From assembly GCA_002215645.1 (NCBI GenBank), contig NGFI01000003.1, positions 1 through 64,000 of the forward strand: DNA of 64,000 nt. Direction: 5' to 3'. Numbering within the stretch: position 1 is the stretch's first letter; each line of letters begins with the position of its first letter. Source of the DNA: Gemmatimonadetes bacterium 2013_60CM_65_52 (GTDB lineage: Bacteria; Gemmatimonadota; Gemmatimonadetes; Gemmatimonadales; Gemmatimonadaceae). The notes beneath the pieces were generated by a model. It searched no databases. It was not told the origin of the DNA and was given only the letters and a program-made list of their open reading frames with translations. This document shows, in pieces, positions 6,006 to 44,130 of this stretch. Position numbers and translations under genes: made by a program.

Positions 6006-7022
6006 ATGCGCTGCCTCTTCTGGGGCGGCGGCGCGATCGGCGGAACGTTGGCGGCGTATCTCGCGCGCGCGGGACATGCCGTCACTGTGGTGGATACCGT
6101 CCGCGAGCACGTCGCGGCCATCGACGACACTGGTCTTCAGATTGTCGGGCCGATCTCTACGTTCACCGTTCGTGTACCAGCCTTCACGCCCGACACATTA
6201 CGCGGCGAATGGGACAGCATCGTCCTCGCGACGAAGGCGCATCACACCCAATCCGCCGCACGAGCGCTCCTCCCACACCTGAGCGCCAATGGCTGCGTGA
6301 TCTCGGCACAGAATGGACTCAACGAGCTCGCGATCGCCGACGTCATAGGCGCCGAGCGAACGGTGGGTGCGTTCGTCAACTTCGGCGCTGATTACATGGA
6401 GCCCGGCGTGATTCATTACGGCGGCCGCGGCGCGGTGGTCGTCGGAGAGATCGACGGCCGCATCACGCCGCGGGTATCCACCATTCGAGATGGCTGGCTC
6501 GATTTTGACGAGGGCGCAATCGTCACGACGAACATCTGGGGCTATCTCTGGGGCAAGGAAGCGTACGGCGCCATGCTCTTCGCTACGGCACTCACGAACG
6601 AATCGATTGCCGACGCGATCGCGATGCCGGAGTACCGCAGTCTGTACACCGCGCTTGCACAGGAGATTCTCGCTGTGGCCAACGCGCGCGGCGTCACGCC
6701 CGAGTCGTTCGACGGATTCGATCCGTCGTCGTTCTTGTCTTCAGCCGCGCCAGATGCGGCCGCGCGCTCGCTGGACGACCTCGTCACTCACAACCGTCGC
6801 TCAGCCAAGACGCACAGCGGCATCTGGCGCGATCTCGCCGTGAGGAAGCGTCCCACAGAAGTCGACGCGCAACTCGGCATCGTCGTGACGCTCGGCCATG
6901 AGGCAGGCGTCGATACACCCCTCACGGAGCGTCTCGTGCAACTCATTCACGACGTCGAAAACGGTGTCAGACCTCAATCCCTCGAAACGCTGAACGAGCT
7001 CGCCGGAATGGTCCACGCATGA
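6006..7022 (+). CDS. Ketopantoate-reductase-like (ApbA/PanE) dehydrogenase
   Basis: The 338-residue product opens with a Rossmann dinucleotide site, FWGGGAIGGTLAAYLARAGH, as in 2-dehydropantoate 2-reductases. A helical C-terminal domain (about residues 175-310) carries the family-like NELAIADVIGAERT and later HSGIWRDL segments. Family members reduce 2-oxo acids or oxidise 2-hydroxy acids with NADP(H). No pantothenate genes are adjacent, and the location inside a catabolic operon argues for a role on the operon's own substrate rather than for panE itself. Its last codons overlap the start of the next gene by four bases (ATGA). Confidence 0.83.
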   Translation: MRCLFWGGGAIGGTLAAYLARAGHAVTVVDTVREHVAAIDDTGLQIVGPISTFTVRVPAFTPDTLRGEWDSIVLATKAHHTQSAARALLPHLSANGCVISAQNGLNELAIADVIGAERTVGAFVNFGADYMEPGVIHYGGRGAVVVGEIDGRITPRVSTIRDGWLDFDEGAIVTTNIWGYLWGKEAYGAMLFATALTNESIADAIAMPEYRSLYTALAQEILAVANARGVTPESFDGFDPSSFLSSAAPDAAARSLDDLVTHNRRSAKTHSGIWRDLAVRKRPTEVDAQLGIVVTLGHEAGVDTPLTERLVQLIHDVENGVRPQSLETLNELAGMVHA

Positions 7023-19827: not shown

Positions 19828-22800
19828 CTACAACATCCCTTGCCGGCGTGCCATCTCGGCCAACTCGCCGCGCGACGCAACATCCAGCTTGAGAAAGATG
19901 TTGGCGAGGTGCGTACCGACCGTGCGCGGCGAGATGTCGAGCGCCGCCGCGATCTCCTTGTTCGACTTGTGAAGCGCCGCGAGACGGGCGACGTCGACCT
20001 CTCGGCTCGTCAAGCCGGCAATCCCCGGCGTGGACACACGCGCCGGCGGCCGGAGCCCGAGCTCACGAATGAGATCCCGTGTGGATGTGAGCTCCGCCTC
20101 CGCTCCCAGCCGAACGAAGACGTCATGCGCGCGCCGCAGCTCTTTCGACGCGGCCTCACGGTCGCCCATCTCTACGAGGACCTCCGCAAGCTTTCGGCGG
20201 ACGCGCGCCCCGTCGAACGCCCATGGTATGGCATCGAGAGCATCGGCTCCATTCCGGAGCAACGGCGCTGCGCGCGCGTAGTCCTTCTCCAACATTGCGA
20301 TGAGCGCATCGCACGTGTCCGCCCACGCCATGCCAAGCCGATGTCCCATCCGCACCGAGTCGCGGCGGAGTCGAGCCCCATATTGCCGCGCCGCGTCGAG
20401 GTCTCTCAGCCACAGCGCGGCCTCGATCATCATCGGCAAAAGCCGGTGAATGCCCCACAACAAATAGCCGGTACGATCAACGAGCTCGAGGCCGGCATCG
20501 CCGATCTCGAGTGCCTGCCGATGTTCGCCGACCGTCACGTGATATGCAACGAGACCCGCGTGTACGGGAGCGGCAGCGTTGACGTCGATGGGACTTTGGA
20601 CATTGTCTCCACCGACCAGCGCACGCGCCTCGTCGAGGTATTGCTTCGCGCGGTCGCGCGCGTTGCGATGCAGGTGGATCATCGCCGACCACACGAGAAG
20701 TCGGGGAACGAGGACGCGCTGCTCCAACGCGCGTGCAAGAGGAATCGTCCGCTCCGCAAGCGCGAGGCCGGCATCCCAATCACCGGTGCCTGAGGCGTAT
20801 TCGATCGCGAGCTCCGCCGTCCAGCAGCGAAGCACGGGTGACCCAAGCGCCTCGGCCAGGCGCTCGCTCTCGGCGAGATGCGCGGCGACCATCTGGCTGT
20901 TGCCCGAGAGCCCGCCAACCATGGCTAACGCCCAGTGCGCCGACCACGCGACGCCTCGCTCGTCCGCCGCCTCGGCGAACTCCACGGCACGCATTCCGTC
21001 GGTTTGTACGCGCTCCGCGGGACCGATGAAGGCGTGCAACAACAAGGACGACCGGTGAGCTCGCGCGAGCAGTGCTGGATCAGCCAGACGGCCGGCGATC
21101 CGCAGCGCGTGCTCGACATCCTCGCGTGCCGTGTCCGATTGACCGAGGCCGTGCATGGTCATCGCCCGCGCCATCAGGATGCGTGCGCGCAGCGAGTCGT
21201 CACCTGCGCGCTCCGCCGCGGCGCCCCCGACGTCGAAGTGGCCCAGTGCATCCTCGTAGCGGCCACTCCAATACGATGCGAGGCCGATGCGTCGCTGAAT
21301 TGCCGCGATGCGTGCGACGTCGTCCGCGGCTTCGGCGGTTTCAAGCGCGCGGCGCCAGAGCGAGGTGGACGCGGCGTACTCACCGAGGCGCTGACGCGCC
21401 TGCGCAAGGTGCTCCACGAGCGATTGTTCGTCGACGAATGGATCGTCCACTGCTGCACGTGCTGCCCCATCGTATTGATCGAGCGCGGCCGCGAGATAGT
21501 CGGCTGCTTCGCGATTGGCATGGCGCTCCAGCGCGAGCCGGCCAGCCGCCGCCAGATAGCGCACGGCCTTTTGCGCCAGACCGCGCGCGTCGGCACGCGC
21601 ATAGTGATATGCGAGCTCGTTGGCGTGTTCGTCCGCGCGTTCGCCGTGGAGCCGCTCGAGCGACTCGGCGACCGTAGCGTGCAGCAGGTGCGTCCGCGCG
21701 ATGCCGAGTGCACCGTACAGAACGTCGCGCACGAGCGGATGCGTAAATTCGTACCGGATGGTGCCTTCTTCGGCGGACTCCGTGAGCACGGTGCGATCGC
21801 GTAGCTCATCGAGTGCGGCCAGGATGTCTTCTTCCGAAAGTCCGCTCACGGCGACGAGCGCATCATGGGAAACACGCGTTCCTATGACGGCCGCGAGATT
21901 GGCGACCGTTCGCGCCGATGGGCTCAGCCGGTCCACACGAGTGAGAATCGCATCGCGGATGGAGCGAGGCAGTCCCGGAAGCTCGGCTTCCCAGCCGAAC
22001 CAGACTCCCTCGCGCTCGTGCAGCGCGCCGGATTCGACGAGCGCCTTGAGAATCTCTTCCGTGAAGAATGGGTTGCCGCGCGTCCATGAGTAGAGTCGGG
22101 GCGCGAGCGTGGATGCGGACGCCGCGTCGGAACGAAACACCGCGCGAAGCAGCGCGTGGAGATCATCCTGGCTCAGTGGCTCGAGCCGAGCGAGCGAGGC
22201 GGCATTGAGCGAAAGCAGGGATTGCTCCGTCGAGCGTAGCGTCGGATTACCATCCAGCTCCGATTCGTTGTACGTGCAGAGGAGCGCGATCCGCTGGCTG
22301 CCGACTTGCCGCGCGACGAAGTGCAGGAGCTCGAGCGACGACGTGTCTGCCCACTGGAGATTCTCCAGGACGATCAGCAGCGGTTTGTTTGCGGCTACGT
22401 GCGAGAGAAACTGCGCGAAGCTCCACAACAGGCGCGCCTTGGCGTCGCCACCCTGATCCCGCGCGGGCGTCGCTCCCGGCGCAAACGCGGGCGAGATGTG
22501 CGCGAGCATGCCAGCGTCGCCGCGAGTGTGCATGGCGAGCGCGGCAGGCGTCATGGCGCGCACCGTTGGCGCGACCGCATCCGCAAAGAGCGCGTAGGGG
22601 ACACCCGTCTCGACCGGATATGCGCGACCGACGATCACCGTCCATCCTTGACGATCAGCGAGCTCAGCTACGCCGCCAACCAGCCGCGTCTTTCCGATAC
22701 CTCCAACGCCGGCAAGGAATTGTGTGCTTCTCCGCCCTTCAGCGACGCTGGTAAGCCAGTTCGACAATAGCGCGAGCTCTTTCTGTCGCCCCACAAACGG

Positions 22801-22866
22801 CAAACGCAGTGGGGGCCGCGCAGTCCCGGCGGGTACGGCTCCCGCCGGTGTCCGTGTCGAAGGCAT
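19828..22866 (-). CDS. Large ATP-binding LuxR-family transcriptional regulator (LAL/MalT-like)
   Basis: 1012 residues. An N-terminal AAA/STAND NTPase begins at FVGRQKELALLSNWL with Walker A GVGGIGKT (53-60) and a Walker B region around LLIVLENLQWADTSSLELL. The middle of about 500 residues is a TPR-like helical solenoid rich in A-x-x-A-x-x-x-L. The C-terminal HTH reads GLTSREVDVARLAALHKSNK and then ISPRTVGTHLANIFLKL, which is canonical LuxR. Such proteins sense a ligand through the solenoid and oligomerise with ATP. Target genes are unknown; the divergent Gfo/Idh gene starts 86 bases away and is the nearest candidate. Confidence 0.9.
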   Translation of the reverse strand: MPSTRTPAGAVPAGTARPPLRLPFVGRQKELALLSNWLTSVAEGRRSTQFLAGVGGIGKTRLVGGVAELADRQGWTVIVGRAYPVETGVPYALFADAVAPTVRAMTPAALAMHTRGDAGMLAHISPAFAPGATPARDQGGDAKARLLWSFAQFLSHVAANKPLLIVLENLQWADTSSLELLHFVARQVGSQRIALLCTYNESELDGNPTLRSTEQSLLSLNAASLARLEPLSQDDLHALLRAVFRSDAASASTLAPRLYSWTRGNPFFTEEILKALVESGALHEREGVWFGWEAELPGLPRSIRDAILTRVDRLSPSARTVANLAAVIGTRVSHDALVAVSGLSEEDILAALDELRDRTVLTESAEEGTIRYEFTHPLVRDVLYGALGIARTHLLHATVAESLERLHGERADEHANELAYHYARADARGLAQKAVRYLAAAGRLALERHANREAADYLAAALDQYDGAARAAVDDPFVDEQSLVEHLAQARQRLGEYAASTSLWRRALETAEAADDVARIAAIQRRIGLASYWSGRYEDALGHFDVGGAAAERAGDDSLRARILMARAMTMHGLGQSDTAREDVEHALRIAGRLADPALLARAHRSSLLLHAFIGPAERVQTDGMRAVEFAEAADERGVAWSAHWALAMVGGLSGNSQMVAAHLAESERLAEALGSPVLRCWTAELAIEYASGTGDWDAGLALAERTIPLARALEQRVLVPRLLVWSAMIHLHRNARDRAKQYLDEARALVGGDNVQSPIDVNAAAPVHAGLVAYHVTVGEHRQALEIGDAGLELVDRTGYLLWGIHRLLPMMIEAALWLRDLDAARQYGARLRRDSVRMGHRLGMAWADTCDALIAMLEKDYARAAPLLRNGADALDAIPWAFDGARVRRKLAEVLVEMGDREAASKELRRAHDVFVRLGAEAELTSTRDLIRELGLRPPARVSTPGIAGLTSREVDVARLAALHKSNKEIAAALDISPRTVGTHLANIFLKLDVASRGELAEMARRQGML

Positions 22867-25483: not shown

Positions 25484-26494
25484 ATGCGATTCGCCCGAAG
25501 ACACATCCTGCTCACGTTGGCGCTGCCGTTCCTGGTGGGCGCAGCCGCGCTTGGCGGACACGCTCCGGCGCGTCCGCTCATTCTCGTGGTGCATGGCCGC
25601 GGCTACCTCACGCGCGATTCGGCGATGATCAGACGGCAGGCGCTTCACGCGTTACGCGAGGGATCGTTTGGGTTGGCGGGTGATTCCCTCCTCGCCGATG
25701 ATGACGTGCGCATGGTCTGGTATGCGGACGTGCTCGATTCACGCCATCGCGACTCGAACCAGTTGAAAACGTGTGTCCGTCGCGACGAGGGAAGTGCCAC
25801 CACGATCTCGGCAGCGTCCATACTACGCGTCTTCGCAGTCTTCGCCAGCGACTTGCTCGAAGCGAGCGTGAGCGGCGATCAAGCAGACGACGTTCGTGGT
25901 GTCGCGGGCGACCTGCGCTTCTTCGGTGACCAGGCATCGCGATGCCTGGCCGAGGGTCGCATCGCGGATGCGATCTCGCGGGCGGTTGACGACGGACGAC
26001 CTGTCGTGCTCGTCGCGCATAGCCTCGGCGCGCTCGTCGCGTGGAGCTATCTCCAGCACCGCGGCACGGCTAGCGAATCGCAGCCACCAGAAATTCGACG
26101 TCTGGTCACCATAGGTTCTCCGCTCGGCTCCGACGATCTGCGCGAGCTCCTGCTCGACGACAGCGGGCCACTGGCCCTTCCTCGCGGCGTGCGCTCGTGG
26201 GTCAATGTGGTGAACGAGCGCGATCCCTTTGCATCACGTTTGCTCGGCCGCGATTCGACTGGCAGTCAGACGCGTGCGATACCAGAGGTCAGCGACGTCG
26301 CCACGCAGAATGGTGACGATGAGCCGCACGAGCTTCTCAGCTATCTCCGCGATCGGAGTACGGTGCAGGCGGTCCTCGGTGCCTGGTGCGAGGCCTACGC
26401 CGCGGTCCAGAAGCCGCGCAGCACCTTGAGCATGCCCAGCCCGCTGAGCACGAACAGCGCGAGCCACATCCAGAACTGCGGCATGCGTCCGTAG
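25484..26494 (+). CDS. Secreted alpha/beta-hydrolase-like protein
   Basis: ATG 25484 follows a good GAGAGG ribosome site and begins a signal peptide (MRFARRHILLTLALPFLVGA); 336 residues. LILVVHGRGY is the oxyanion-side strand, and VLVAHSLGALVAWSY holds the nucleophile elbow. VTIGSPLGS follows as in lipase/PGAP1-like hydrolases. The stretch between is atypical and contains one Cys on each side. The last 100 bases (33 codons) overlap the 3' end of the symporter gene on the opposite strand; that tail (KPRSTLSMPSPLSTNS) is of low complexity, so the functional protein may end earlier. Confidence 0.75.
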   Translation: MRFARRHILLTLALPFLVGAAALGGHAPARPLILVVHGRGYLTRDSAMIRRQALHALREGSFGLAGDSLLADDDVRMVWYADVLDSRHRDSNQLKTCVRRDEGSATTISAASILRVFAVFASDLLEASVSGDQADDVRGVAGDLRFFGDQASRCLAEGRIADAISRAVDDGRPVVLVAHSLGALVAWSYLQHRGTASESQPPEIRRLVTIGSPLGSDDLRELLLDDSGPLALPRGVRSWVNVVNERDPFASRLLGRDSTGSQTRAIPEVSDVATQNGDDEPHELLSYLRDRSTVQAVLGAWCEAYAAVQKPRSTLSMPSPLSTNSASHIQNCGMRP

Positions 26495-28176
26495 AGCAGA
26501 CTTCCCGTGCCGAAGAGCGCCGCGTAGACGAAGGCGCATCCGAGCATCCAGCCAAGGAGTGCCTGGGGCAGCGAGTCGGGCGACGCACTCGATTCAGCAC
26601 GCGCTGCGATCGGCTTCCATCCCGGCCCCGCGGGGCGCACCAGTTCGTAAAACCGCATGAGCGTCGCGTCATCCGCTGGCGGCGCCAGCAACGTCGTCGT
26701 CACCCAGACGGCCGTGGTCACCCCGACGGTCACGAGCAATGAGACGGTCGATGCGACCTCGAATCCCATCTTCCGCGCGACGAAGAATGCGAGCGCTACG
26801 ATGAACGAGCTCGCCATGGCCGCGATCTCGCTCCATGCACTCACCCGCCACCAGAACCATCGCAACAGATAGAGCAAACCCGTTCCGGCCCCGATTGAAA
26901 GAATGATGTCGAACGCCTCGCGCGCGGTGCCGAGCGCGTACGTCAGCAACGCCGCGAAGATCATCAACGCGGCGGTCGTCAGCCGTCCCGCGAGCACGTA
27001 ATGCTTCTCGGTGAGCCCCGGCCGGAGGAAGCGTCGGTAGAAATCGTGCACCAGATAGCTGGTGCCCCAGTTGAGATGCGTTTCGATGGTGGAGCGATAC
27101 GCCGCCAGCGTGCCGGCCACCACGAGCCCGAGAAATCCAGTCGGCAGAAAGCGCATCATCGCCGGGTAGGCGATGTCGTTTCCGAGCAGCGAGCGGTTCA
27201 TCTCCGGAAATGCCGCCGCGATGTCGGAGAGCTGCGGATAGATGATGGTGGACGCGAGCGCCACGATGATCCACGGCCACGGGCGCAGCGCATAGTGCAT
27301 CACGTTGAAGAGCAGCGTTCCTACGACGGCATCCTTCTCCGATTTCGACGCGAGCATGCGCTGTGCGATGTAGCTCCCGCCGCCGGGCTCCGCGCCGGGA
27401 TACCAGACGGACCACCATTGCAGCGTGAGCGGAATCACGAACACTGTGGCCGCGACGGTCCAGTCGCCGAAGTCAGGCAGGAGGGCGAGCGTCTTCGGTG
27501 GCACCTTTGCGAGCAGACCCGCCATACCGCCCACCTCAGGCTGTGCCAGCGCGAAGTATGCGACAGCGAAGGTGCCCGTCATCGTGATGCCGAATTGAAT
27601 GGTGTCCGTCACCAGGACGCCCCACAACCCGCTCACCGACGCGAAGAAGATCGTCATCGCCGCGCAGACCACGAGCGTGCGTCCCATGGGCCAGCCGAGC
27701 ACCACGTTGCCGATCTTGGCGGCGGCGAGGTTCACGGTGGCCATGATGACGCAGTTGAACAGGAGACCGAGGTACACGGCGCGGAAGCCGCGCAGCACTC
27801 TCGCCGCCTTGCCGGAGTATCGAATCTCGTAGAACTCGAGATCGGTGAGCACGCCCGACCGGCGCCACAGCCGGGCGTAGAAGAACACCGTCATCATTCC
27901 CGTGAGGAGGAAGCTCCACCAGAGCCAGTTCTCCGCCACGCCGCGGTCGCGCACCATGTTGGTGACGAGGTTGGGCGTATCGGTGCTGAAGGTGGTGGCA
28001 ACCATCGAGATGCCGACGAGCCACCATGGCGCGGCGCGGCCGGAGGTGAAGAATTCGCTGGTGTTGGTGCTCGCCCGCTTCCAGAAGAAGAGTGCGGGAA
28101 GGAAGCTCACGGCGATGCTCGCGCCGATGATGACCCAGTCGAGCGTGGCGAAGTGGAAGGGACCTTTCAGCACCAT
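26395..28176 (-). CDS. Sodium:solute symporter (SSS family)
   Basis: 593 residues with about 13-14 hydrophobic segments. The FFTSGRAAPWWLVGISMVATTFSTDTPN region matches the SSS TM1-TM2 signature involved in sodium and solute binding. The ATVNLAAAKIGNVVLGWPMG and GVLVTDTIQFGI segments fit TM4-TM6. Substrate classes include sugars, amino acids and carboxylates; none can be chosen. It diverges from the B3 lactamase gene (51 bases between starts) and overlaps the hydrolase gene tail to tail by 100 bases. Confidence 0.9.
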   Translation of the reverse strand: MVLKGPFHFATLDWVIIGASIAVSFLPALFFWKRASTNTSEFFTSGRAAPWWLVGISMVATTFSTDTPNLVTNMVRDRGVAENWLWWSFLLTGMMTVFFYARLWRRSGVLTDLEFYEIRYSGKAARVLRGFRAVYLGLLFNCVIMATVNLAAAKIGNVVLGWPMGRTLVVCAAMTIFFASVSGLWGVLVTDTIQFGITMTGTFAVAYFALAQPEVGGMAGLLAKVPPKTLALLPDFGDWTVAATVFVIPLTLQWWSVWYPGAEPGGGSYIAQRMLASKSEKDAVVGTLLFNVMHYALRPWPWIIVALASTIIYPQLSDIAAAFPEMNRSLLGNDIAYPAMMRFLPTGFLGLVVAGTLAAYRSTIETHLNWGTSYLVHDFYRRFLRPGLTEKHYVLAGRLTTAALMIFAALLTYALGTAREAFDIILSIGAGTGLLYLLRWFWWRVSAWSEIAAMASSFIVALAFFVARKMGFEVASTVSLLVTVGVTTAVWVTTTLLAPPADDATLMRFYELVRPAGPGWKPIAARAESSASPDSLPQALLGWMLGCAFVYAALFGTGSLLYGRMPQFWMWLALFVLSGLGMLKVLRGFWTAA

Positions 28177-28227
28177 GGAGAGACGGGTATTGTGGGTGGA
28201 CGCTCTTCGTCCAGGAAAATTGCCGCC

Positions 28228-29139
28228 GTGAACTTTACGCTCTTCGCGCGTCTGCGCATCGGTACTCTTCTATCGCTCGCACTGGCGTTGTCGTCGCCGG
28301 CGAAAGCGCAGTCGCCGGATTCGACGCGTGCCAACTATGTGTATTCTGCCGCCCAGTGTCCGAGCTGCGCGGACTGGAGCGTTCCACACCAGCCCATCAG
28401 GATCTTCGGAAATACGTGGTACGTCGGCACGAATGGATTGAGTGCGATTCTCATTACGTCGCCGGAAGGACACATCCTGATCGACGGCGGCCTGCCTGCG
28501 TCTGCACCGAGCATCGTGGCGAACATCAGGGCACTGAACTTCCGCGTGGAGGATGTAAAGCTCATCGTGAACTCGCACGCGCACTACGATCATGCAGGCG
28601 GCATCGCCGAACTGCAACGTGCGTCGGGCGCCGAGGTGGCAGCGAGTCCATCGAGTGGGCGGTGGATTCGATCGGGCAAGTCGTGGCCGGACGATCCACA
28701 GTTCGGTATCGCGTTCTCTTACCCGCCCGCTCCGGTGGCGCGGACGATCGCCGATGGCGACACGCTCCGTGTTGGCTCACTCGCGATTACGGCGCACTTT
28801 ACCGGGGGCCATACGCCCGGTGGAACGACGTGGAGCTGGCGGTCGTGTGAGGGGTCAGTATGCCACGGCATTGTCTATGCGGACAGCCAGTCGCCGATAT
28901 CGGCTGAGGGATTCTTCTTCACCCGGAGCAAGGAGTATCCGACGGCGCTCGCTGATTTCGAGCACGGGTTCGACGTGCTGGCGCACCTTCAATGTGACAT
29001 ACTCATCACGCCGCATCCGTCGGTGTCGCGGTTGTGGGAGCGGATGGAGTCGGGAGCGCTTACTGATTCGGATGCGTGCAAGTGGTTCGCGGCGGGCGCC
29101 CGACAGGCACTGGCCAAGCGAGTTGCAACTGAGCGATAA
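28228..29139 (+). CDS. Subclass B3 metallo-beta-lactamase
   Basis: The start is GTG 28228, preceded by AGGAAA and followed by a signal peptide (LLSLALALSSPAKAQ); 303 residues. All zinc ligands of subclass B3 are in place: SHAHYDHAGG gives His117, His119, Asp121 and His122, GGHTPGG gives His195, and PHPS gives His263. The N-terminal W..GTNGLSAILITSPEGHIL strand pair is also typical of B3. B3 enzymes hydrolyse penicillins, cephalosporins and carbapenems in the periplasm, although environmental members may act on other substrates such as lactones. Six cysteines may form disulphides. It is most likely a functional chromosomal enzyme. Confidence 0.9.
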   Translation: MNFTLFARLRIGTLLSLALALSSPAKAQSPDSTRANYVYSAAQCPSCADWSVPHQPIRIFGNTWYVGTNGLSAILITSPEGHILIDGGLPASAPSIVANIRALNFRVEDVKLIVNSHAHYDHAGGIAELQRASGAEVAASPSSGRWIRSGKSWPDDPQFGIAFSYPPAPVARTIADGDTLRVGSLAITAHFTGGHTPGGTTWSWRSCEGSVCHGIVYADSQSPISAEGFFFTRSKEYPTALADFEHGFDVLAHLQCDILITPHPSVSRLWERMESGALTDSDACKWFAAGARQALAKRVATER

Positions 29140-29153
29140 ACGCGGATCAGACT

Positions 29154-30029
29154 ATGCAGCGTGGCAATGCCGTGGCCCAAGCCGTAATCGGCGCACTGGC
29201 GCTTCTTGCTCCCGGAATAGCCCCGGCGCAGATCGACTCGCCATCCGTTCCGAGCATGCTGGCGACCGCTCTGCTATCCGGGACACGCTCCGCGGGAATC
29301 ATGAACGAGGCGCGTTACGTCGTCGGCACGCTGCCGGCCGGATGGCCGATCGGGATTAGCCCGGCCGCACCGGCGACGGTCGTCGGTGGGATGATCAACG
29401 GGCATCACCTCATCGTCGTGTTCGCCGACACCACGCGCCGCTTCCTCGAGCGGTATTTTACGCTGCTCGAACAGAACGGCTGGAAGTCGCACACGCTCCC
29501 GGCAAGCACCATCGAGTCGAGTGGCTTTCAGAGCACCGGCTGGTCCAATGATGGTCTGTTCTGCCGAGACTCGGCGGGCGTCACTGCCTTACCCGTCGCG
29601 GGTGCGGCGACAGGCGCATTGGTGCACGTCATGTATCGCGCCTCGGACGCGAGATGCTTTCCCCCCGCACCACGCGTCGTAGCGCGTCTGGTGGACGAGC
29701 CACTCAAATTCCCGGTGCTGAAGCCGCCGAAATCGTCGCGGTTTCCAAGCTTCGGCGGAAGCAGCTCGGCCGGAGACGTATCGACGCGCGTTCGTCTCAT
29801 CGACTCGACCCTGGGTTCGGCAGCCATCGTTGCTCACTACGCGAAACAACTCGTCGAGGCTGGATGGACGGCGGGCACGTTTCAGGAATCCTATACGGAC
29901 CTCTTCGCGTCGCAGGCGTTCGACGCGTGCGACACGACCGGCAGGCACTGGACGGGCACACTCAGCGTGGTATCGACGAGGGCGAACCGCGACGTCTCCA
30001 TCACGATGTGGCTGGACGAACGACCGTGA
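29154..30029 (+). CDS. Secreted protein of unknown function, tandem paralogue 1
   Basis: 291 residues with a signal peptide (AVIGALALLAPGIAPAQ). I do not recognise the family. The recurring layout is SMLATALLSG...NEARYVVGTLPAGWP, then a beta-rich middle with two Cys, a Pro-rich KFPVLKPP segment, and a final helix-turn region STLGSAAIVAHYAKQLVEAGW. The next gene has the same order of segments, so the two are paralogues. They overlap by one base (TGATG), implying co-translation. The repeated YxxxLxxxGW helix resembles ligand-independent scaffolds in secreted domain pairs, but no function can be assigned. Confidence 0.65.
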   Translation: MQRGNAVAQAVIGALALLAPGIAPAQIDSPSVPSMLATALLSGTRSAGIMNEARYVVGTLPAGWPIGISPAAPATVVGGMINGHHLIVVFADTTRRFLERYFTLLEQNGWKSHTLPASTIESSGFQSTGWSNDGLFCRDSAGVTALPVAGAATGALVHVMYRASDARCFPPAPRVVARLVDEPLKFPVLKPPKSSRFPSFGGSSSAGDVSTRVRLIDSTLGSAAIVAHYAKQLVEAGWTAGTFQESYTDLFASQAFDACDTTGRHWTGTLSVVSTRANRDVSITMWLDERP

Positions 30030-30889
30030 TGTACTCACTCAGACACGCGCTGTTGGCGCTGATCGCGCTTGCAGCCATCACGATGCCTATTGCCGCACAG
30101 CGGCAGACGCAGATGGTGCCGTCCGTTCTCGTGAAAGCTGTGTTGCTTCGAAATGTGCCCTTCAACGAGGAGGCGCGCTTTGCCGTCGGACAGCTACCAA
30201 AGCGGTGGCCAGGTGGATTGGACCCGAAGCCCCCTGCGCGCCTCGTCGGCAGCGGCACTCTCGGTACGATGACAACCGTTGTATACCGCTATCCGCGCTC
30301 GACGAACGGGATCTCCCGCCTCGAGTCGCTGCTGCGTCGTGCGGGGTATACGGCGGCGACATCCATGCCCGTGGAGCCCAATCCATATCGTGGGTTCATT
30401 GCGAACGATTCGCCGGCACCGGAACACACGTTCTGTAGCGACAGCGACGCCATGGTGGTGAGACAGGTTGATTCGACGCGTCGTTACCGCAGTTTCGCGC
30501 TGACGCAGGTGGTGGGGTATCGGCCGGTCGGCGGGTGCAACGCGCCAGAATTCAGAGAACGCCGGCCGCCGCTGATCTTCCCTGTTCTTCGCCCTCCGCC
30601 CGGCGTGAGCGCCAGTCGGGATCCCCTGTCATACGGCACCCGCAACGAGGAATCGAACATCCGTCTTGATTCTACGCTGAGCGTAGAGTCGATTCTTATC
30701 CACTACGCCCGCGAGCTGGAGTCAGGGGGTTGGCACGCCTCGCATGTGATCGGTGCAGGCGCTGGTGCGGGGATGCTTCAAGTGACGGCGCGAGACACGA
30801 AGAATGACGAGTGGCACGGTGTGCTGTACGTCATAACCGGAGTGAAGGATCGGCTCGTGGTGCTGCGCATGATGCGCGACCGCGAGTAA
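30029..30889 (+). CDS. Secreted protein of unknown function, tandem paralogue 2
   Basis: ATG 30029 sits in the stop of the previous gene and starts a signal peptide (LLALIALAAITMPIAAQ); 286 residues. The shared segments are NEEARFAVGQLPKRWPGGL, LIFPVLRPPPG and STLSVESILIHYARELESGGW, matching paralogue 1 in order and spacing. It ends VVLRMMRDRE; a diverged copy of those last codons lies downstream at 31328. The pair probably arose by tandem duplication. Confidence 0.65.
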   Translation: MYSLRHALLALIALAAITMPIAAQRQTQMVPSVLVKAVLLRNVPFNEEARFAVGQLPKRWPGGLDPKPPARLVGSGTLGTMTTVVYRYPRSTNGISRLESLLRRAGYTAATSMPVEPNPYRGFIANDSPAPEHTFCSDSDAMVVRQVDSTRRYRSFALTQVVGYRPVGGCNAPEFRERRPPLIFPVLRPPPGVSASRDPLSYGTRNEESNIRLDSTLSVESILIHYARELESGGWHASHVIGAGAGAGMLQVTARDTKNDEWHGVLYVITGVKDRLVVLRMMRDRE

Positions 30890-30903
30890 CACATGAGGTC
30901 CAA

Positions 30904-31317
30904 ATGATCACCATGCGACGGAGTCTGCCTGCACTGCTTCTCATTGCCACTTCCTGCGCGAGACCTCCTGCTGCTACTGCGACCGGCACGCAGTTGGCCA
31001 GGAATCCGAACGTCATCAGCCAGGCCGAGCTCCAGAACCCGGAGCTCGGCGGCATGGATGCGTTGAAGGCCATCCGTTTCCTCCGACCGACGTTCTTCCG
31101 CACGAGTGGCCCTCAGAGCTTCGTTGGTGGAGGCGCGGGGATCGTGCAGTTCTCGGAGGACTACGGTCCCTTGCGGCCCATCCGTGAGCTGACCTACTTC
31201 AGGGTGAATCTCCTCTATGAGGTTCGGTACCTGGACGAGCACGACGCGCAGAACCGATTCGGGCTCAATGCGAACGGTGGGCCGGTCATCGTGCTGGTGA
31301 GCTTCAAGCAGCAGTAG
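30904..31317 (+). CDS. Small lipoprotein of unknown function
   Basis: 137 residues from ATG 30904 (an in-frame ATG at 30913 is also possible). The lipobox is LIATSC. After it come RNPNVISQAELQN and MDALKAIRFLRPTFFR, a pattern I associate with short lipoproteins common in Gemmatimonadota-like genomes, often with a beta-rich C-terminus similar to TonB/CNA-like plug fragments. The last half (YFRVNLLYEVRYLDEHDAQN) is consistent with that. It follows the paralogue pair by 14 bases. Confidence 0.6.
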   Translation: MITMRRSLPALLLIATSCARPPAATATGTQLARNPNVISQAELQNPELGGMDALKAIRFLRPTFFRTSGPQSFVGGGAGIVQFSEDYGPLRPIRELTYFRVNLLYEVRYLDEHDAQNRFGLNANGGPVIVLVSFKQQ

Positions 31318-33612: not shown

Positions 33613-34602
33613 TCAGCGACGCGCGGCCGCTGCCGGCTCGGCCACGTCCGTCGCGAGGATCGCCGTGAGCGGCAGGTTGATGTAGTAGTTCGCGCGACCG
33701 ATCCGCTCCTTGTGGAGAATGCCGCCGGCGGCGAGCAGATCCAGATATCGAGTGGCGGTAATGCGTGACACGCTCAGGTCGTTCTGGATGAACTGGATCT
33801 TCGTGTATGGATGCGAGAACAGGCTGTTGATGAGGTCCTGGCTGTAGATCTTGCCATGCTCGGACCGGATGCGATGCTTCGTCTTGAGTAGAGCGTCCTT
33901 GATTGCGTTGACCACCGCGATGCCCTCTCGCGCCGCCGCTTCGACTGCGGTCAGCATGTAGACGACCCACTCTTCCCACGCTCCTCGCTCGCGGACGTCC
34001 TGGAGTAGCCGATAATAGTCGCCCTTCGTGCGCACGATGTGACGGCTCATGTAGAGGATCGGAATGTCGAGCAGGTTTTCCGTGAGGAGGTAGAGCACGT
34101 TGATGATGCGGCCGGTGCGACCATTGCCGTCATAGAACGGGTGGATGCTCTCGAACTGGTGATGGATCAGCGCCATTCTGATGAGTGGGTCCGCGGTGAA
34201 TGCCTCGCCGTCATTGATGAACGTCTCGAGATCGCTCATCAGGGCAGGCACGGCGCCGGGATCGGGTGGCGTGTACACAGTCTCACCAACGCTGTTCTTG
34301 AGCACCGTCCCTGGTACTTTGCGAAACCCGGCGTCGTTGCGCTCCAGCTCCGCCTGTATTCGCAGGATATCGTTGATCGTAAGCATTCTTCTCACACTGA
34401 CGGCGTCATAGCCGACCCTGAGCGCCTGACGATAGCGAAGCACCTCCTTGGCGGCGGGACTTCCGACGTTGTCCGGAAGCGCAGCGTCGCGAAAGAGCTC
34501 GTCATGCGTGGTGACGATGTTCTCGATGGCCGAGCTGTCCTTGGCCTCCTGCAAGCCAAGGGCGTTGATCAGGATGTCGCCGCGAGGAATGGACGCGGCC
34601 AC
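33613..34602 (-). CDS. Fic-family AMPylase, 5' end disturbed
   Basis: The first in-frame start is GTG 34602 (329 residues). The catalytic motif HPFYDGNGRTGR (His154) is intact. An N-terminal inhibitory motif S-x-x-x-E-N (SSAIEN, residues 23-28) marks the auto-inhibited class. A winged-helix-like C-terminus follows. However, the frame stays Fic-like for about 36 codons upstream of 34602 (ILPLTALDPARF, LKGLAAASRQLAELKGV), without any ATG, GTG or TTG. An ATG at 34730 starts MVYTWLA and then stops; adding one base near 34710 would join it to the frame and give 372 residues, the usual family length. A start-proximal frameshift, real or technical, is the best reading. Confidence 0.8.
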   Translation of the reverse strand: MAASIPRGDILINALGLQEAKDSSAIENIVTTHDELFRDAALPDNVGSPAAKEVLRYRQALRVGYDAVSVRRMLTINDILRIQAELERNDAGFRKVPGTVLKNSVGETVYTPPDPGAVPALMSDLETFINDGEAFTADPLIRMALIHHQFESIHPFYDGNGRTGRIINVLYLLTENLLDIPILYMSRHIVRTKGDYYRLLQDVRERGAWEEWVVYMLTAVEAAAREGIAVVNAIKDALLKTKHRIRSEHGKIYSQDLINSLFSHPYTKIQFIQNDLSVSRITATRYLDLLAAGGILHKERIGRANYYINLPLTAILATDVAEPAAAARR

Positions 34603-36005: not shown

Positions 36006-37406
36006 TCAACGACCACCGATGCTCCCTGCCCAGGCGCCGCCCAACGCCTTGTAGAGTGCAAGGTAAGCCGTCGCCGCGTCGGTCTCTCCCTGTGCCAACC
36101 GGTCCTGCGCGTCGAGCACCGTGCGCTGCGCATCGAGCAGCTCGAGAAAGTCGGATTCGCCGCCGTCGAGGCGCAGGCGCGCGAGCTCCGCGCCGCGTTC
36201 GCTCGAGCGCGCCGCGTCTTGCAGCAGCAACACCCGCGCGCGCGATCGATCGTACGCGACGATCGCATTCTCCGCCTCCGCCTGTGCGCTGAGCACGATC
36301 TGGTCGCGACGCGCGCGCGCCTCCTCCTCCTGCGCGCGCGCGCCTTCGACATGGGCACGCACGCGCCCCAGGTCGAACGCAGGCCACGAGAGCACCGGAC
36401 CGATCAGATACCGCGATGACTCCTTCTTGCCCAGCAAATCGGTTGCTCCGGCATTGAAGCCGACACTTCCGATCACGTTCAACCGAGGGAGGTAATCTGC
36501 GCGGGCCACACTCACCAGTGCTCCCTGTGCGGTAAGGCGTCTTTCCGCGCTCCGCACGTCGGGACGTTGGCGAATCAGCGCGGCGACCGACTCGATTGCC
36601 GGACCGGCAGGGAGGACGGGAAGTGGCACTGTCTCGACGACCTCGTAGTCGCCGGGCGGTCCCTGTAATGGAATGGGCGTCAGCCGCCGTCCGCCGACCA
36701 GCACGCCGATTCGGTAGTTCGCGGCCGCGATCCTCGCGTCGATGGCGGTCACGCCAGCCAAGGTCGTGCTCACCAGCGCGCTCGCACGCTCGCGGTCGAA
36801 CGCGGTGCCCCGCCCAGCAGCCAGGCGGTCTACCGTGTACCGCAGGGTACGCCGCTGATTCGCCGCGTTCTGCTCCGCGACGGCCAGCTGACGCTGCGCA
36901 CCGCGCAGCTCGAAGTACGTTCGCGCCAGCTCCGAAACGAGTGAGAGCTGCACGTCGCGCAACTCCTCGCTGGCCGACCCGGCAAGCGCACTCCGCGCCG
37001 CAAATGCGCTGCGCACGCGCCCGAAGATGTCCACCTCCCAACTCGCATCGAATCCGGCGTCGTACACGTCCTGTTCGCGAAACGATGCGGGGGCGCCCGG
37101 AAGCTGGGTGGCGCTGAAACGCCGGCGCGAGAAGCCGGTGTTCGAGGTGACGGTCGGCGCAAAATCGAAAGCCGCCAGCCGTCCTGCCACGCGCGCTCCG
37201 CGCAGGCGCGCCTCAGCGGCGTGAACGTCGTAGTTGGCGCGCAGCGCCTCGACGGTGAGGCGTTCGAGCGTCGTGTCGCCCAGTTCGTGCCAGAAGGCAA
37301 CGAGCGCGGGCTCATCGGCGCGCGCCGTGGTCGACTGACCGAGCAAGGGTGCCGTCACGCTCACCGCGAGCGCGGCAGCTGCCATGATGATTGGAAGACT
37401 ACGCAT
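36006..37406 (-). CDS. Outer-membrane efflux channel, TolC/NodT family
   Basis: The frame is open to 37511; ATG 37406 begins the signal peptide (MRSLPIIMAAAALAVSVTA), giving 466 residues. Two repeats of long helices flank beta segments, as in TolC-type channels (WEVDIFGRVRSAFAARSAL and its counterpart LSWPAFDLGRVRAHVEGAR). Its start overlaps the RND gene stop by eight bases. It is the third gene of the adaptor-pump-channel operon. No lipobox is visible, unlike many NodT proteins. Confidence 0.9.
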   Translation of the reverse strand: MRSLPIIMAAAALAVSVTAPLLGQSTTARADEPALVAFWHELGDTTLERLTVEALRANYDVHAAEARLRGARVAGRLAAFDFAPTVTSNTGFSRRRFSATQLPGAPASFREQDVYDAGFDASWEVDIFGRVRSAFAARSALAGSASEELRDVQLSLVSELARTYFELRGAQRQLAVAEQNAANQRRTLRYTVDRLAAGRGTAFDRERASALVSTTLAGVTAIDARIAAANYRIGVLVGGRRLTPIPLQGPPGDYEVVETVPLPVLPAGPAIESVAALIRQRPDVRSAERRLTAQGALVSVARADYLPRLNVIGSVGFNAGATDLLGKKESSRYLIGPVLSWPAFDLGRVRAHVEGARAQEEEARARRDQIVLSAQAEAENAIVAYDRSRARVLLLQDAARSSERGAELARLRLDGGESDFLELLDAQRTVLDAQDRLAQGETDAATAYLALYKALGGAWAGSIGGR

Positions 37407-40400
37407 GAAGGGGTGCCTCCAGTTCGCCGGCCGGCGGATATGTCGTTGACGCCGTGCCACTCGGCGGCGCCGATGCGTCACGGCGCTCGACGAACTTGCG
37501 AAGGACCACATAGAACACCGGAGTCAGAATCAGACCGAAGACCGTAACGCCGATCATGCCGGAGAACACGGCGACTCCCATCGCCTGACGCATCTCCGCG
37601 CCGGCACCCTTCGAGATCATGAGGGGAACCACGCCCATGATGAAGGCGAGCGAGGTCATGAGGATGGGACGCAAACGGAGCCGGCATGCCTCCAGTGCAG
37701 CGCTGATGCGATCGCGGCCCTGCGCCTGCAGCTCCCGCGCAAATTCCACGATCAGAATGGCGTTCTTGCATGCCAAACCGACCAGAACGATGAATCCGAT
37801 CTGGGTAAAGATGTTGTTGTCGCCCCTGCTCAACCACACACCGGCGAGGGCCGACAGCAGCCCCATGGGAACGATCAGGATCACCGCCAACGGGAGCGAC
37901 CAGCTCTCGTATTGCGCCGCCAATACCAGGAAGGCGAGCAGGACGCACAAAGGAAAGACGTAGAGGGCAGTGTTTCCCGACAGAATCTGCTGGTACGTCA
38001 GCTCCGTCCATTCGAAGTGGACGCCGTTCGGCAGCGTCTCCTTCGCGAGCTGCTCCATCGTTGCGACGGCCTGTCCCGAGCTCACGCCCGGTGCGGGGCC
38101 GCCCACCACCTCGGCAGCAGGGTACGCGTTGTACCGGACGACGCGATCGGGACCGTTTGATGGGCGCACGGTGAGCACCGAGCTCAGAGGAACCATCTCG
38201 CCGCGTGCATTGCGTACTTCGAGCTGCCCCACGCCGTCAGACGTCGCGCGGAACGGCGCGTCCGCCTGCGCCACCACGCGATACGTACGGCCGAACTTTG
38301 TGAAGTCGTTCACGTACGCGGAGCCCAGGTACACCTGTAGCGTCTGGAAGACGTCGGTGAGTGCGATCCCCTGCCGCTTCACCTTCTCACGGTCGACGTC
38401 CACCGAGAGCTGCGGAACACTGGTCTGATAGCCGGAAAAGACTCCTGCGAGCACCGGTGTCTGATACACCTTGCCGAGGAGCTCCTGCAACGCCTTGTTG
38501 ATCTGCCCTTCGCCAACCGCGGCGCGATCCTCGATCTCCATCTTGAAGCCGCCCACGGTGCCAAGTCCCTGCACTGGTGGCGGCGGGAAGATCGCGATGT
38601 ACGCATCCTGGATGGAGCCGAACTCCTGATTCAACGCGGCCGCGATTGCCGGTCCGTACCCATCCTTCCCCTTTCGCGCCTCGAAGTTCTCGAGACCGAA
38701 GAAGACGATGCCTGCGTTCGGGCTGTTGACGAACCCGTTGATCGAGAGACCAGGGAAGGCAATGGCGTTTGCCACTCCCGGGTGCTTGAGGCCGATGGCG
38801 CTCATCCGCCTGATCACCGACTCCGTGCGGTCGAGCGTCGCCGCGTCGGGGAGCTGAGCGAAGGCGATGAGGTACCCCTTGTCCTGCGTCGGCACGAAAC
38901 CGGTCGGCACGCGCGCAAAACCGACGCCGGCGAGCACGATCAGTCCGGCGTACACCGCGAGTGCGATCCCGCTCTTCCGGATCACGCCGGCGACACCGCG
39001 GCCGTAGCTCTCGGAAGCGCGAGCGAAGAGGCGGTTGAATGGGCGAAAGAGCCAGCCGAAGAGACGCTCGATGACGCGCGTTGGCGCGTCGGGCGCCGCG
39101 CCGTGCGGCTTGAGCAGCAGCGCGCTGAGCGCGGGCGAAAGCGTCAGCGAGTTGAACGCCGAGATCACCGTGGAAAAGGCAATCGTCATCGCGAACTGCC
39201 GATAGAACTGCCCCGTCAGGCCGCTGATGAACGCGATCGGAACGAACACGGCGCACAGCACCATCGCGATCGCGATGATCGGCCCGCTCACCTCGTGCAT
39301 CGCCTGGTAGCTCGCCTCACGCGGCGTCATCCCGAGTGCGATGTTGCGCTCGACGTTCTCCACGACGACGATCGCGTCGTCCACCACGATGCCGACCGCA
39401 AGCACGAGCCCGAAGAGCGACAGCGTGTTGATCGAGAAGCGGAAGGCGAGCATGAAGGCGAGCGTTCCGACGATCGACACCGGAACGGCCAGGAGCGGGA
39501 TGATCGACGCGCGCCACGTCTGGAGAAAGAGCACGACGACGAGCACGACAAGCAGCGTCGCCTCGAGCAGAGTCTTCACCACTTCCCGGATCGAGTCGCG
39601 CACGAAGGTCGTCGGATCGTAGACGACCGAGTAGTCGATCCCCTCCGGAAACGTCTTCTTCAGCTCAGCCAGCGTTGCCCGCACGTCGCTCGAGAGCTGC
39701 AGGGCGTTCGATCCCGGTGCCTGAAAGATCGGAATCGCGACCGCGAACTTGTTGTCGAGCAGGGAGCGCAGCGCGTACTCGCCCGCCGCGAGCTCGATGC
39801 GGGCGACGTCGCGGAGACGCGTGAGCTCGCCCGATGCCCCGGTCTTCACGATGATGTCGCCGAACTCCTTTTCGTCTACCAGACGTCCGCGCGCGTTGAC
39901 GCTCAGCTGGTAGGCGACGTCGCCCTTCATGGGCGGCGCGCCCACCACGCCGGCCGCCACTTGCACGTTCTGCTCGCGAATGGCCTGCACGACATCGCCC
40001 GCCGAGAGTCCGCGCGCCGCGACCTTCTGCGGATCGAGCCAGATGCGCATGGCGTAGTCGCCGGCGCCGAAGATCTGCACCTGGCCTACACCACGGACGC
40101 GTGCCAACGCGTCCTTCACCTGAAGCGTCGCGAAATTGCGCAGGTAGGTCATGTCGTACCGATTGTCGGGCGACACCAGGTGCACGACCATCGTCAGGTC
40201 GGGGGAGCTCTTGACGGTGGTGACGCCGTACTGTCGCACTTCCTCCGGCAATCGCGGCAGCGCCTGGCTCACGCGATTCTGCACCTGCACCTGCGCCACA
40301 TCGGGGTCGGTCCCGACACGGAAGGTCACCGTCAGCGTGACGACGCCGTCGGCCGTCGCCTGCGACGACATGTAGAGCATGTTCTCGACGCCGTTGACCT

Positions 40401-40608
40401 GCTCCTCGAGTGGTGTGCTCACCGCTTCGGCGAGCGCGCGCGGATTGGCGCCGGGATAGATGGCCCTGACGACGATCGACGGCGGTACCACTTCGGGATA
40501 CTCGCTGATGGGCAGCGCGAACATCGCGATCGCGCCGGCGAGGAATACGATCATCGACAGCACGCCCGCGAGTATGGGGCGGTCGATGAAGAATCGGGAG
40601 AATCTCAC
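37399..40608 (-). CDS. RND multidrug efflux pump, HAE-1 (AcrB) family
   Basis: 1069 residues. The first segment FFIDRPILAGVLSMIVFLAG and the proton-relay Asp pair in GIVVDDAIVVVENVERN are characteristic of HAE-1 pumps. Two large periplasmic loops and the pseudo-twofold 12-TM layout are visible. The MPISEYPEVVPPSI-like start (LPISEYPEVVPPSIVV) and the length match AcrB/MexB/CmeB. It exports hydrophobic drugs, detergents or solvents across the envelope together with the adaptor and channel encoded on either side. Confidence 0.95.
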   Translation of the reverse strand: MRFSRFFIDRPILAGVLSMIVFLAGAIAMFALPISEYPEVVPPSIVVRAIYPGANPRALAEAVSTPLEEQVNGVENMLYMSSQATADGVVTLTVTFRVGTDPDVAQVQVQNRVSQALPRLPEEVRQYGVTTVKSSPDLTMVVHLVSPDNRYDMTYLRNFATLQVKDALARVRGVGQVQIFGAGDYAMRIWLDPQKVAARGLSAGDVVQAIREQNVQVAAGVVGAPPMKGDVAYQLSVNARGRLVDEKEFGDIIVKTGASGELTRLRDVARIELAAGEYALRSLLDNKFAVAIPIFQAPGSNALQLSSDVRATLAELKKTFPEGIDYSVVYDPTTFVRDSIREVVKTLLEATLLVVLVVVLFLQTWRASIIPLLAVPVSIVGTLAFMLAFRFSINTLSLFGLVLAVGIVVDDAIVVVENVERNIALGMTPREASYQAMHEVSGPIIAIAMVLCAVFVPIAFISGLTGQFYRQFAMTIAFSTVISAFNSLTLSPALSALLLKPHGAAPDAPTRVIERLFGWLFRPFNRLFARASESYGRGVAGVIRKSGIALAVYAGLIVLAGVGFARVPTGFVPTQDKGYLIAFAQLPDAATLDRTESVIRRMSAIGLKHPGVANAIAFPGLSINGFVNSPNAGIVFFGLENFEARKGKDGYGPAIAAALNQEFGSIQDAYIAIFPPPPVQGLGTVGGFKMEIEDRAAVGEGQINKALQELLGKVYQTPVLAGVFSGYQTSVPQLSVDVDREKVKRQGIALTDVFQTLQVYLGSAYVNDFTKFGRTYRVVAQADAPFRATSDGVGQLEVRNARGEMVPLSSVLTVRPSNGPDRVVRYNAYPAAEVVGGPAPGVSSGQAVATMEQLAKETLPNGVHFEWTELTYQQILSGNTALYVFPLCVLLAFLVLAAQYESWSLPLAVILIVPMGLLSALAGVWLSRGDNNIFTQIGFIVLVGLACKNAILIVEFARELQAQGRDRISAALEACRLRLRPILMTSLAFIMGVVPLMISKGAGAEMRQAMGVAVFSGMIGVTVFGLILTPVFYVVLRKFVERRDASAPPSGTASTTYPPAGELEAPLHA

Positions 40609-40625
40609 GTGTGGGCTCTTCGGGG

Positions 40626-41795
40626 TTACTTCGCTGCCGCTTGCGCGACCGCCGTGGAGTCTTTCTGCATCGGTTCCAGGGTCGCTTTCACCGCAACGCC
40701 GGGCCGGACGCGTTGCAACCCGTTCACCACGATCTGCTCGCCCGCCGAGACCCCCGACGTCGCGATGCGAAGTCCGTCAGCCATGCGGCCGAGCTGGACG
40801 ACGCGATACTCGAGCGTACCGTCCTTCTTGAGCACGAGGACGAACTTGCGGTCCTGATCCGTGCCGACGGCCGCGTCGCGAATGAGCACGACCGGGTGCT
40901 GCGCGCCGCTCAGCAGCTTGACGCGGGCAAACAGGCCGGGCGCGTAGCCGCGCGCGGCGTTCGAGAACACGGCACGCGCGCGGATAGTCCCCGTCCTGGG
41001 ATCGAGTTGGTTGTCGACGAAGTCCAGGCGACCCGTGTGCGAGAAGCCGTCGTCGTCAGCCAATGCCATTTGGACGGAGAACTTCCCGTTGCGCAGGTTC
41101 TGTCGCCGGTCGGTCCGCCCCTGCATGCCGTACTTGAGGAAGGCACGCTCATCGGCGTCGAAGTACACGAAGATCGAATCGAGAGAGACGATCGTCGTCA
41201 GCAGCGTCGGCGCCGGCGGTCCCGCCTGCACGAGATTCCCCTCGGTCACCTCGGCCCGGCTGATCCGGCCGGCGATCGGCGCGCGCACCTCGGTCCACTC
41301 GAGGTTCAGCGCCGCTGTCTCGACCTGCGCCTGAGCCCCGCGGATCGCCGCGGCGATCTCACGCTCGGCGTTCACGCGTACGTCGAACTCCTCGCGCGAG
41401 ATCGCCTGCTTCTCGACCAGTGTGCGCGACCGCTCGACTTCGCTGTGCGCGAGCTGAGCGCGCGACGTCACACGCAGCAGTTCAGCGCGCGCGCGATCCA
41501 GTTCGGCCCGGTAGGGACGGGGGTCGATCGTGAAGAGCACGTCGCCGCGCCGGACCTCGGTCCCTTCGCGGAAGGCGACGCGCTGGAGCAGCCCGGCCAC
41601 GCGCGGACGCACCGCGACGACGTCCACCGCCTCCAGCCGGCCGGTGAACTCGTCGAATTCGTCGATGTTGAGCTCGATCGCCTTCGCGACCGTGACTTGC
41701 GGCGGGGCAGGAGGGACCGGTGCTGCCTGGGCGGCGCAACCGGCCAAGATGGCGGTTAACGCGAGGGACGCTGCGGAACGCTTGGTCGGTATCAT
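40626..41795 (-). CDS. RND periplasmic adaptor (membrane fusion protein)
   Basis: 389 residues with lipobox ILAGC. The lipoyl halves (RVAGLLQRVAFREGTEVRRGDVLFTID and WTEVRAPIAGRISRAEVTEGNLV) flank a long hairpin, followed by beta-barrel and membrane-proximal domains. It is the first gene of the pump operon and lies 17 bases before the pump gene. The operon diverges from the HxlR regulator with 158 bases between. Confidence 0.93.
   Translation of the reverse strand: MIPTKRSAASLALTAILAGCAAQAAPVPPAPPQVTVAKAIELNIDEFDEFTGRLEAVDVVAVRPRVAGLLQRVAFREGTEVRRGDVLFTIDPRPYRAELDRARAELLRVTSRAQLAHSEVERSRTLVEKQAISREEFDVRVNAEREIAAAIRGAQAQVETAALNLEWTEVRAPIAGRISRAEVTEGNLVQAGPPAPTLLTTIVSLDSIFVYFDADERAFLKYGMQGRTDRRQNLRNGKFSVQMALADDDGFSHTGRLDFVDNQLDPRTGTIRARAVFSNAARGYAPGLFARVKLLSGAQHPVVLIRDAAVGTDQDRKFVLVLKKDGTLEYRVVQLGRMADGLRIATSGVSAGEQIVVNGLQRVRPGVAVKATLEPMQKDSTAVAQAAAK

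Positions 41796-42480: not shown

Positions 42481-44130
<1,650 letters not shown>

Follow-up and report, generated by a model that had tools for sequence, protein, structure and literature searches.

A native-looking subclass B3 metallo-beta-lactamase gene in a member of the Gemmatimonadota

Described subclass B3 enzymes and the gene at 28228..29139

Subclass B3 metallo-beta-lactamases (MBLs) are recognized by a zinc motif of HHH (positions 116, 118, and 196 in class B beta-lactamase, or BBL, numbering) plus DHH (positions 120, 121, and 263) (PMC7381538), and Gln157, Ser221, and Ser/Thr223 are given as their substrate-recognition residues (PMC7392888). Described enzymes include Rm3 (PDB 5iqk), a subclass B3 enzyme from functional metagenomics; AIM-1 (4awy), SMB-1 (3vpe), and LMB-1, which are acquired enzymes of clinical isolates; and the bifunctional enzymes MIM-1 (6auf) and SAM-1 (6mfi, listed as MIM-2). 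Another is GRD33-1, a subclass B3 enzyme from a soil metagenome with a predicted Gemmatimonas origin, which we compared by description only (PMC5184135). In extracts of E. coli TOP10, GRD33-1 hydrolyzed imipenem at 340 +/- 50 nmol/min/mg, and it raised several minimum inhibitory concentrations, including that of meropenem from 0.125 to 0.5 ug/ml (PMC5184135). Thus, a functional B3 enzyme attributed to the Gemmatimonadota is not new. Among the papers listed in searches of an open-licence library, there were no other functional studies of B3 enzymes or MBLs from Gemmatimonadetes or Gemmatimonas, and a 2020 survey of GTDB genomes put the emphasis on four other phyla (PMC7381538). Here we describe a B3 gene at positions 28228 to 29139 in the first 64,000 nucleotides of contig NGFI01000003.1 (the window) from Gemmatimonadetes bacterium 2013_60CM_65_52.

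The sequence comparisons and structural model presented here suggested, with a probability of about 0.9, that this gene encodes a resident, stand-alone subclass B3 MBL that would be exported by the Sec pathway, carry two zinc ions, and open penicillins, cephalosporins, and carbapenems. As an observation the gene is correct, and it is an ordinary gene, one more member of the established B3 enzymes. An AGGA sequence was read upstream of it at 28213-28216, and the features of the gene are as follows.

28228..29139, + strand: subclass B3 metallo-beta-lactamase gene; 303 amino acids, GTG start, TAA stop, match to NF033105 over the cut-off
28228..28308, + strand: predicted Sec signal peptide of 27 amino acids, with an AKA end before Q28, read by eye from the sequence
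28357..28368, + strand: N-terminal CxxC (C44, C47), the Rm3 pattern, which replaces the C40-C68 pair of MIM-1
28576..28593, + strand: HAHYDH with zinc ligands H117, H119, D121, and H122 (BBL 116, 118, 120, and 121), from the alignment
28693..28701, + strand: DPQ loop with Q158 (BBL Gln157), the column being set by the AIM-1 Q157A and Q157N entries
28810..28812, + strand: zinc ligand H195 (BBL 196), from the alignment
28885..28893, + strand: S220-Q221-S222 (BBL 221-223), substrate-binding loop, with a Gln at BBL 222 that is typical of the Gemmatimonadota clade
29014..29016, + strand: zinc ligand H263 (BBL 263), from the alignment

The assignment of the window protein to subclass B3 is well supported. 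The ligand set was HHH/DHH, which fits the subclass motif, and all three substrate-recognition residues were present (Q158, S220, and S222). The best NCBIfam model was NF033105 (bla_subclass_B3), which scored 313.9 bits, over its curated cut-off of 240 bits, with an E value of 7e-94, and Pfam assigned the protein to Lactamase_B. Among the 25 models listed, no named B3 family scored over its own NCBI cut-off, the best being THIN (269.9 of 700 bits) and AIM (269.2 of 675 bits). A sequence search of the PDB yielded 39 distinct matches at E<=0.001, with Rm3 at the top (6.5e-93). Based on BLASTP, the protein was 54% identical to Rm3, 48% to AIM-1 and MEM-A1, 46% to MIM-1, and 43% to SMB-1 and LMB-1; the identities to more distant B3 enzymes were 32% (BJP-1), 31% (LRA-12), and 30% (FEZ-1). 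A search of PHROGs returned weak MBL-fold matches only. The gene was the single B3-grade copy in its own genome, where five other MBL-fold matches had E values of 3e-9 or weaker.

Similar results were obtained with the predicted fold. An AlphaFold model made with a 24-row alignment had a mean predicted local distance difference test score (pLDDT) of 93.9 and a predicted template modeling score (pTM) of 0.92, with low confidence at residues 1-6 of the mature chain. Rm3 was the solved structure nearest to this model (Z of 43.1, root mean square deviation of 1.0 A over 262 residues), and the Z scores for MEM-A1, AIM-1, SMB-1, SAM-1, and MIM-1 were 39-42 (39 for both SAM-1 and MIM-1). B3 enzymes and close MBL-fold relatives occupied ranks 1-42, more distant MBL folds appeared from a Z of 20.8, and Foldseek agreed with the ranking. 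The original prediction, which was made from the sequence alone, had called a complete subclass B3 enzyme with His117, His119, Asp121, His122, His195, and His263 as ligands. All six were found at exactly these positions, and the ligands, the curated model score, the predicted fold, and the place in the tree (see below) upheld the call.

The N-terminal region resembled that of Rm3. The two proteins had the same ligands and a CxxC near the N terminus, and both lacked a Cys at the C68 position, but the residues at BBL 222/223 are Ile/Asn in Rm3 and Gln/Ser in the window protein, and Rm3 fell outside the Gemmatimonadota clade. AIM-1, SMB-1, and LMB-1 shared the ligands and Gln157 with the window protein but were located on other branches of the tree, and AIM-1 and LMB-1 have a Cys at the C68 position. 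In the alignment, the window protein had N69 at the C68-type position and therefore no N-terminal disulfide of the MIM-1/SAM-1 type. A C40-C68-type bridge has been tied to an open active site, and Rm3 has been placed with the enzymes whose N terminus intrudes (PMC7392888). Because the window protein has an Rm3-type N terminus, an Rm3-like activity is expected.

We infer the export route, metal binding, chemistry, substrates, and role of the enzyme as follows. The Sec pathway would deliver the enzyme to the periplasm, and the chain would fold into the alpha-beta/beta-alpha sandwich of the MBL fold. One zinc ion would be bound by H117, H119, and H195 and a second by D121, H122, and H263, and a zinc-bound hydroxide would act on penicillins, cephalosporins, and carbapenems by opening their beta-lactam ring while Q158, S220, and S222 hold the substrate. 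The ecological role would be protection against beta-lactams. The export signal in the original prediction agreed with our reading of the first 27 residues, which look Sec-type. Its suggestion of an environmental carbapenemase was favored by homology: Rm3, AIM-1, SMB-1, and MIM-1 shared a half of the tree with the window protein, and imipenem hydrolysis was observed with GRD33-1.

Placement in the tree and residency in the Gemmatimonadota

Of 93 rows at the start, nine were left out, as duplicates (L001, L023, and L015) or as fragments or broken frames (L021, L095, L092, L094, L097, and L060), and nine reference enzymes were added. The main tree again contained 93 rows, in which the window protein was accompanied by 83 relatives and the 9 references. 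The weak-match loci L002-L006 and L098-L101, as well as L1, THIN-B, SAM-1, and GRD33-1, were outside the tree set. Two of the omitted loci may be decayed copies or assembly errors: L095, from an Acidobacteriota metagenome-assembled genome, held a B3 homologue in two frames, and L021 (G054:C15) was shortened.

The window protein was located in a 16-row clade that consisted of Gemmatimonadota loci only (support of 99/91), six of them Gemmatimonadota by record name and 10, the window included, from the window's own order. The nearest row was L007, which came from a genome of the same genus and was 66% identical. Rm3, MEM-A1, SMB-1, AIM-1, MIM-1, and LMB-1 were outside this clade and within the same 63-row half of the tree; hence, in the phylogeny with clinical B3 enzymes that the original prediction had proposed, the window clade was separate from AIM-1, SMB-1, and LMB-1. 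Other copies from the window's order (L017-L020 and L022) were placed near FEZ-1 or further out, so the B3 genes of the phylum belong to at least two lineages.

Another tree, built by a faster method, was made with 30 loci found by profile, which were the best 30 of the 40 places in a survey of the phylum. In this tree, 24 loci (the window's included) fell in the main clade, three were FEZ-like, and three were in a separate deep group; the main clade had an SH-like approximate likelihood ratio test (SH-aLRT) value of 90, which is under the starred level. The six ligands were intact in 16 of the 16 clade rows and in 30 of the 30 profile-found loci. The loci L123, L125, and L138 represented a deeper Gemmatimonadota B3 group with 41-43% identity, C44 without C47, and an alignment gap after BBL Ser221.

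B3 genes over the NCBI model cut-off were detected in 39 of 200 Gemmatimonadota genomes (20 of 93 genera) and in one of 14 control genomes, that of Caulobacter vibrioides. The window's own family, which supplied 69 of the 200 genomes surveyed, accounted for 28 of the 39 B3-positive genomes, as counted from the listed rows. Copies occurred in three single-contig genomes (G030, G077, and G103), so these copies are on the main replicon if the assemblies are complete. The window gene, on a contig of 118,506 bases, likely has a chromosomal place as well. Its composition was native: the G+C content at third codon positions (GC3) was 0.72, compared to a mean of 0.78 (standard deviation of 0.06) for a set of 27 genes of the window to which it belongs. 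The TonB receptor gene was read out of frame in this set, and the mean was barely affected. Matches were found in 20 of 72,556 plasmid records, none of them at >=60% identity. With this gene, the environmental reservoir of beta-lactamases gains a further B3 enzyme that is complete and looks native.

Gln157, position 222, and the alternative readings

Gln157 has been proposed, with reference to earlier work, as a residue that occurs only in B3 genes acquired by horizontal transfer (PMC7392888). Its column in our alignment could be anchored because the Q157A and Q157N entries of AIM-1 differ from AIM-1 at exactly that residue. In the first alignment, Gln157 was present in 63 of the 63 rows of the half of the tree that holds Rm3, AIM, SMB, and MIM. 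The corresponding count for the other half was 0 of 30, yet 25 of these 30 rows were gapped at the column, several with a DFQ close by, and three FEZ-like rows of the second alignment had a Q aligned with it. Therefore, our claim is that Gln157 occurs in all rows of the first half, with no claim of absence elsewhere. The search that supplied some loci of the first alignment used peptide patterns, CPSC and DDPQF among them, which introduced a bias toward CxxC and Gln157. The profile-found loci of the phylum are free of this bias, and Gln157 was found in all 30 of them (27 with DPQ and three with DFQ), the three single-contig genomes among them. These data argue against taking Gln157 to show that a gene was acquired horizontally.

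Two further features were examined in the same rows. A Gln or Glu at BBL 222 was found in 16 of the 16 clade rows versus two of the 77 others and in 22 of the 24 profile-found loci of the main clade, where the remaining two had His and Arg. CxxC was also found in 22 of these 24 loci, one of the others having CxxA and one lacking its N terminus, and it extended beyond the clade: within the 63-row half, 22 rows from outside the clade, including Rm3, had it too. A broader reading, which we put forward tentatively and consider unlikely, is that the Gemmatimonadota own a resident B3 lineage marked by CxxC and by a polar residue, nearly always Gln, at BBL 222, which is flanked by the two Ser/Thr residues that bind substrate; this residue would give the lineage a substrate preference different from those of AIM-1 and Rm3. 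Since Gln157 was universal in the resident copies, it would be an old B3 feature in this broader reading and not a mark of mobility. If true, such phyla could form a deep reservoir with links to the origin of the acquired AIM/SMB-type B3 genes.

Of the rival explanations for the window gene, the one that we take most seriously, and still regard as improbable, is a bifunctional enzyme whose natural main role is lactone hydrolysis (quorum quenching), with beta-lactams as a side activity. This would resemble MIM-1 and SAM-1, which hydrolyze homoserine lactones (PMC7392888), and the degree of identity to MIM-1 noted above is in keeping with it. However, AIM-1 is slightly closer in sequence, has a very similar active site, and is described as lacking homoserine-lactone hydrolysis; the determinant of B3 lactonase activity is left open in the same source (PMC7392888). 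The window protein also lacks the C40-C68-type disulfide of MIM-1 and SAM-1, and no LuxI-type gene was found among the scanned neighbors; the LuxR-family protein encoded at 19828-22866, 5 kb from the B3 gene, is an ATPase-type regulator. The lactone activity of MIM-1 and SAM-1 nonetheless weighs against the preferred reading of a resident, stand-alone beta-lactamase, as does the fact that the host of GRD33-1 was predicted by RAIphy from sequence composition only (PMC5184135). A search for sigma-70-type promoters in 27900-31000 gave 0 matches where 0.7 were expected by chance; this carries little weight, and the promoters of this phylum may differ.

A recently acquired mobile resistance gene would account for the Gln157 residue, as a proposed mark of acquisition, and for the patchy spread of the gene, which matched in 17 of 60 relatives at E<=1e-30. 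We consider it very improbable, since Gln157 was general in resident copies of the phylum, the clade was restricted to Gemmatimonadota, GC3 was native, no mobile-element domain was detected in the 19 scanned neighbors, and plasmid matches stayed below 60% identity; recent transfer was rejected based on composition, clade, and the plasmid search. The idea of a B3-like MBL-fold hydrolase of the HARLDQ type, with no lactamase function, seems scarcely credible. The HARLDQ_not_B3 model did match, at 188.4 bits, but this score was far under its cut-off of 350, all 24 B3 rows tested matched it too (E<=0.001), and the ligands were HHH/DHH, not HRH/DQK. A resident, stand-alone subclass B3 MBL is the reading that we prefer.

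The surroundings of the gene

To describe the surroundings of the B3 gene, 19 neighbor proteins encoded between 12126 and 44130 were scanned with Pfam, and three had no match. The neighbors included a pyrroloquinoline quinone (PQQ) dehydrogenase, an M20_dimer-domain protein, a TonB receptor, a GFO/IDH/MocA oxidoreductase, a response regulator, a PF00144 serine hydrolase, a weak alpha/beta hydrolase, a 6-phosphogluconolactonase-type (lactonase-type) beta-propeller, and an AP_endonuc_2 protein. A divergent sodium:solute symporter gene on the opposite strand (26395-28176) starts 51 bases from the B3 gene. The original prediction had described the surroundings as secreted hydrolases and a transporter. 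The PF00144 hydrolase, the weak alpha/beta hydrolase, the symporter, and the beta-propeller fit this wording, which was only partly right as a description. It had also stated that no mobile element or AmpR-type regulator was nearby, and transposase, integrase, and LysR domains were indeed absent from the 19 scanned neighbors; small open reading frames (ORFs) were only partly covered, and smaller or unscanned ones might hold such a domain.

The proteins encoded by 15 window neighbors were compared with 20 related loci, some of them short; the pairs L103/L023 and L111/L027 each represent a single gene. This yielded three weak matches only, to the alpha/beta hydrolase in L108 (36% over 122 amino acids) and to the PF00144 protein in L028 and L029 (24-31%). 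Among 20 flanking proteins of relatives that were scanned, no family was shared except for one further PF00144 protein (L029). Since, apart from these weak matches, no neighbors travel with the B3 gene in the relatives compared, the gene stands alone. A unit consisting of the symporter gene, the downstream pair of genes, and the B3 gene was considered and rejected, as none of the three partners was matched in the 20 loci.

The two genes of this downstream pair, at 29154-30029 and approximately 30032-30889 (both +), encode tandem secreted-looking proteins with 34% mutual identity and no Pfam or NCBIfam match. The pair recurred in tandem in the relative G022, about 207 kb from the B3 gene of that genome, and a single weak match was found in G002; any match was seen in three of the 41 genomes searched, own included. 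Another relative (G024) encodes a protein of the aminoglycoside 3-N-acetyltransferase family (PF02522; L106:8626-9432, -) roughly 200 bases downstream of its B3 gene, on the opposite strand.

Several other features of the window were observed. ARAGORN called a tRNA-Gln at 6702-6779 (-), within a coding-length ORF of the other strand (6006-7022), and the call is probably false because Rfam showed no tRNA there at the gathering score. A SoFic-type Fic-domain protein, likely a protein adenylyltransferase, is encoded at 33613-34602 (-). The region at 36006-41795 (-), 7 kb from the B3 gene, contains a full tripartite resistance-nodulation-division (RND) efflux set, namely, an outer-membrane factor, an AcrB-type pump, and a membrane-fusion protein. 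Some ABC-F proteins shield ribosomes from antibiotics, and the gene at 42481-44130 (-) encodes an ABC-F-like ATPase that combines two ABC domains with an ABC_tran_Xtn linker.
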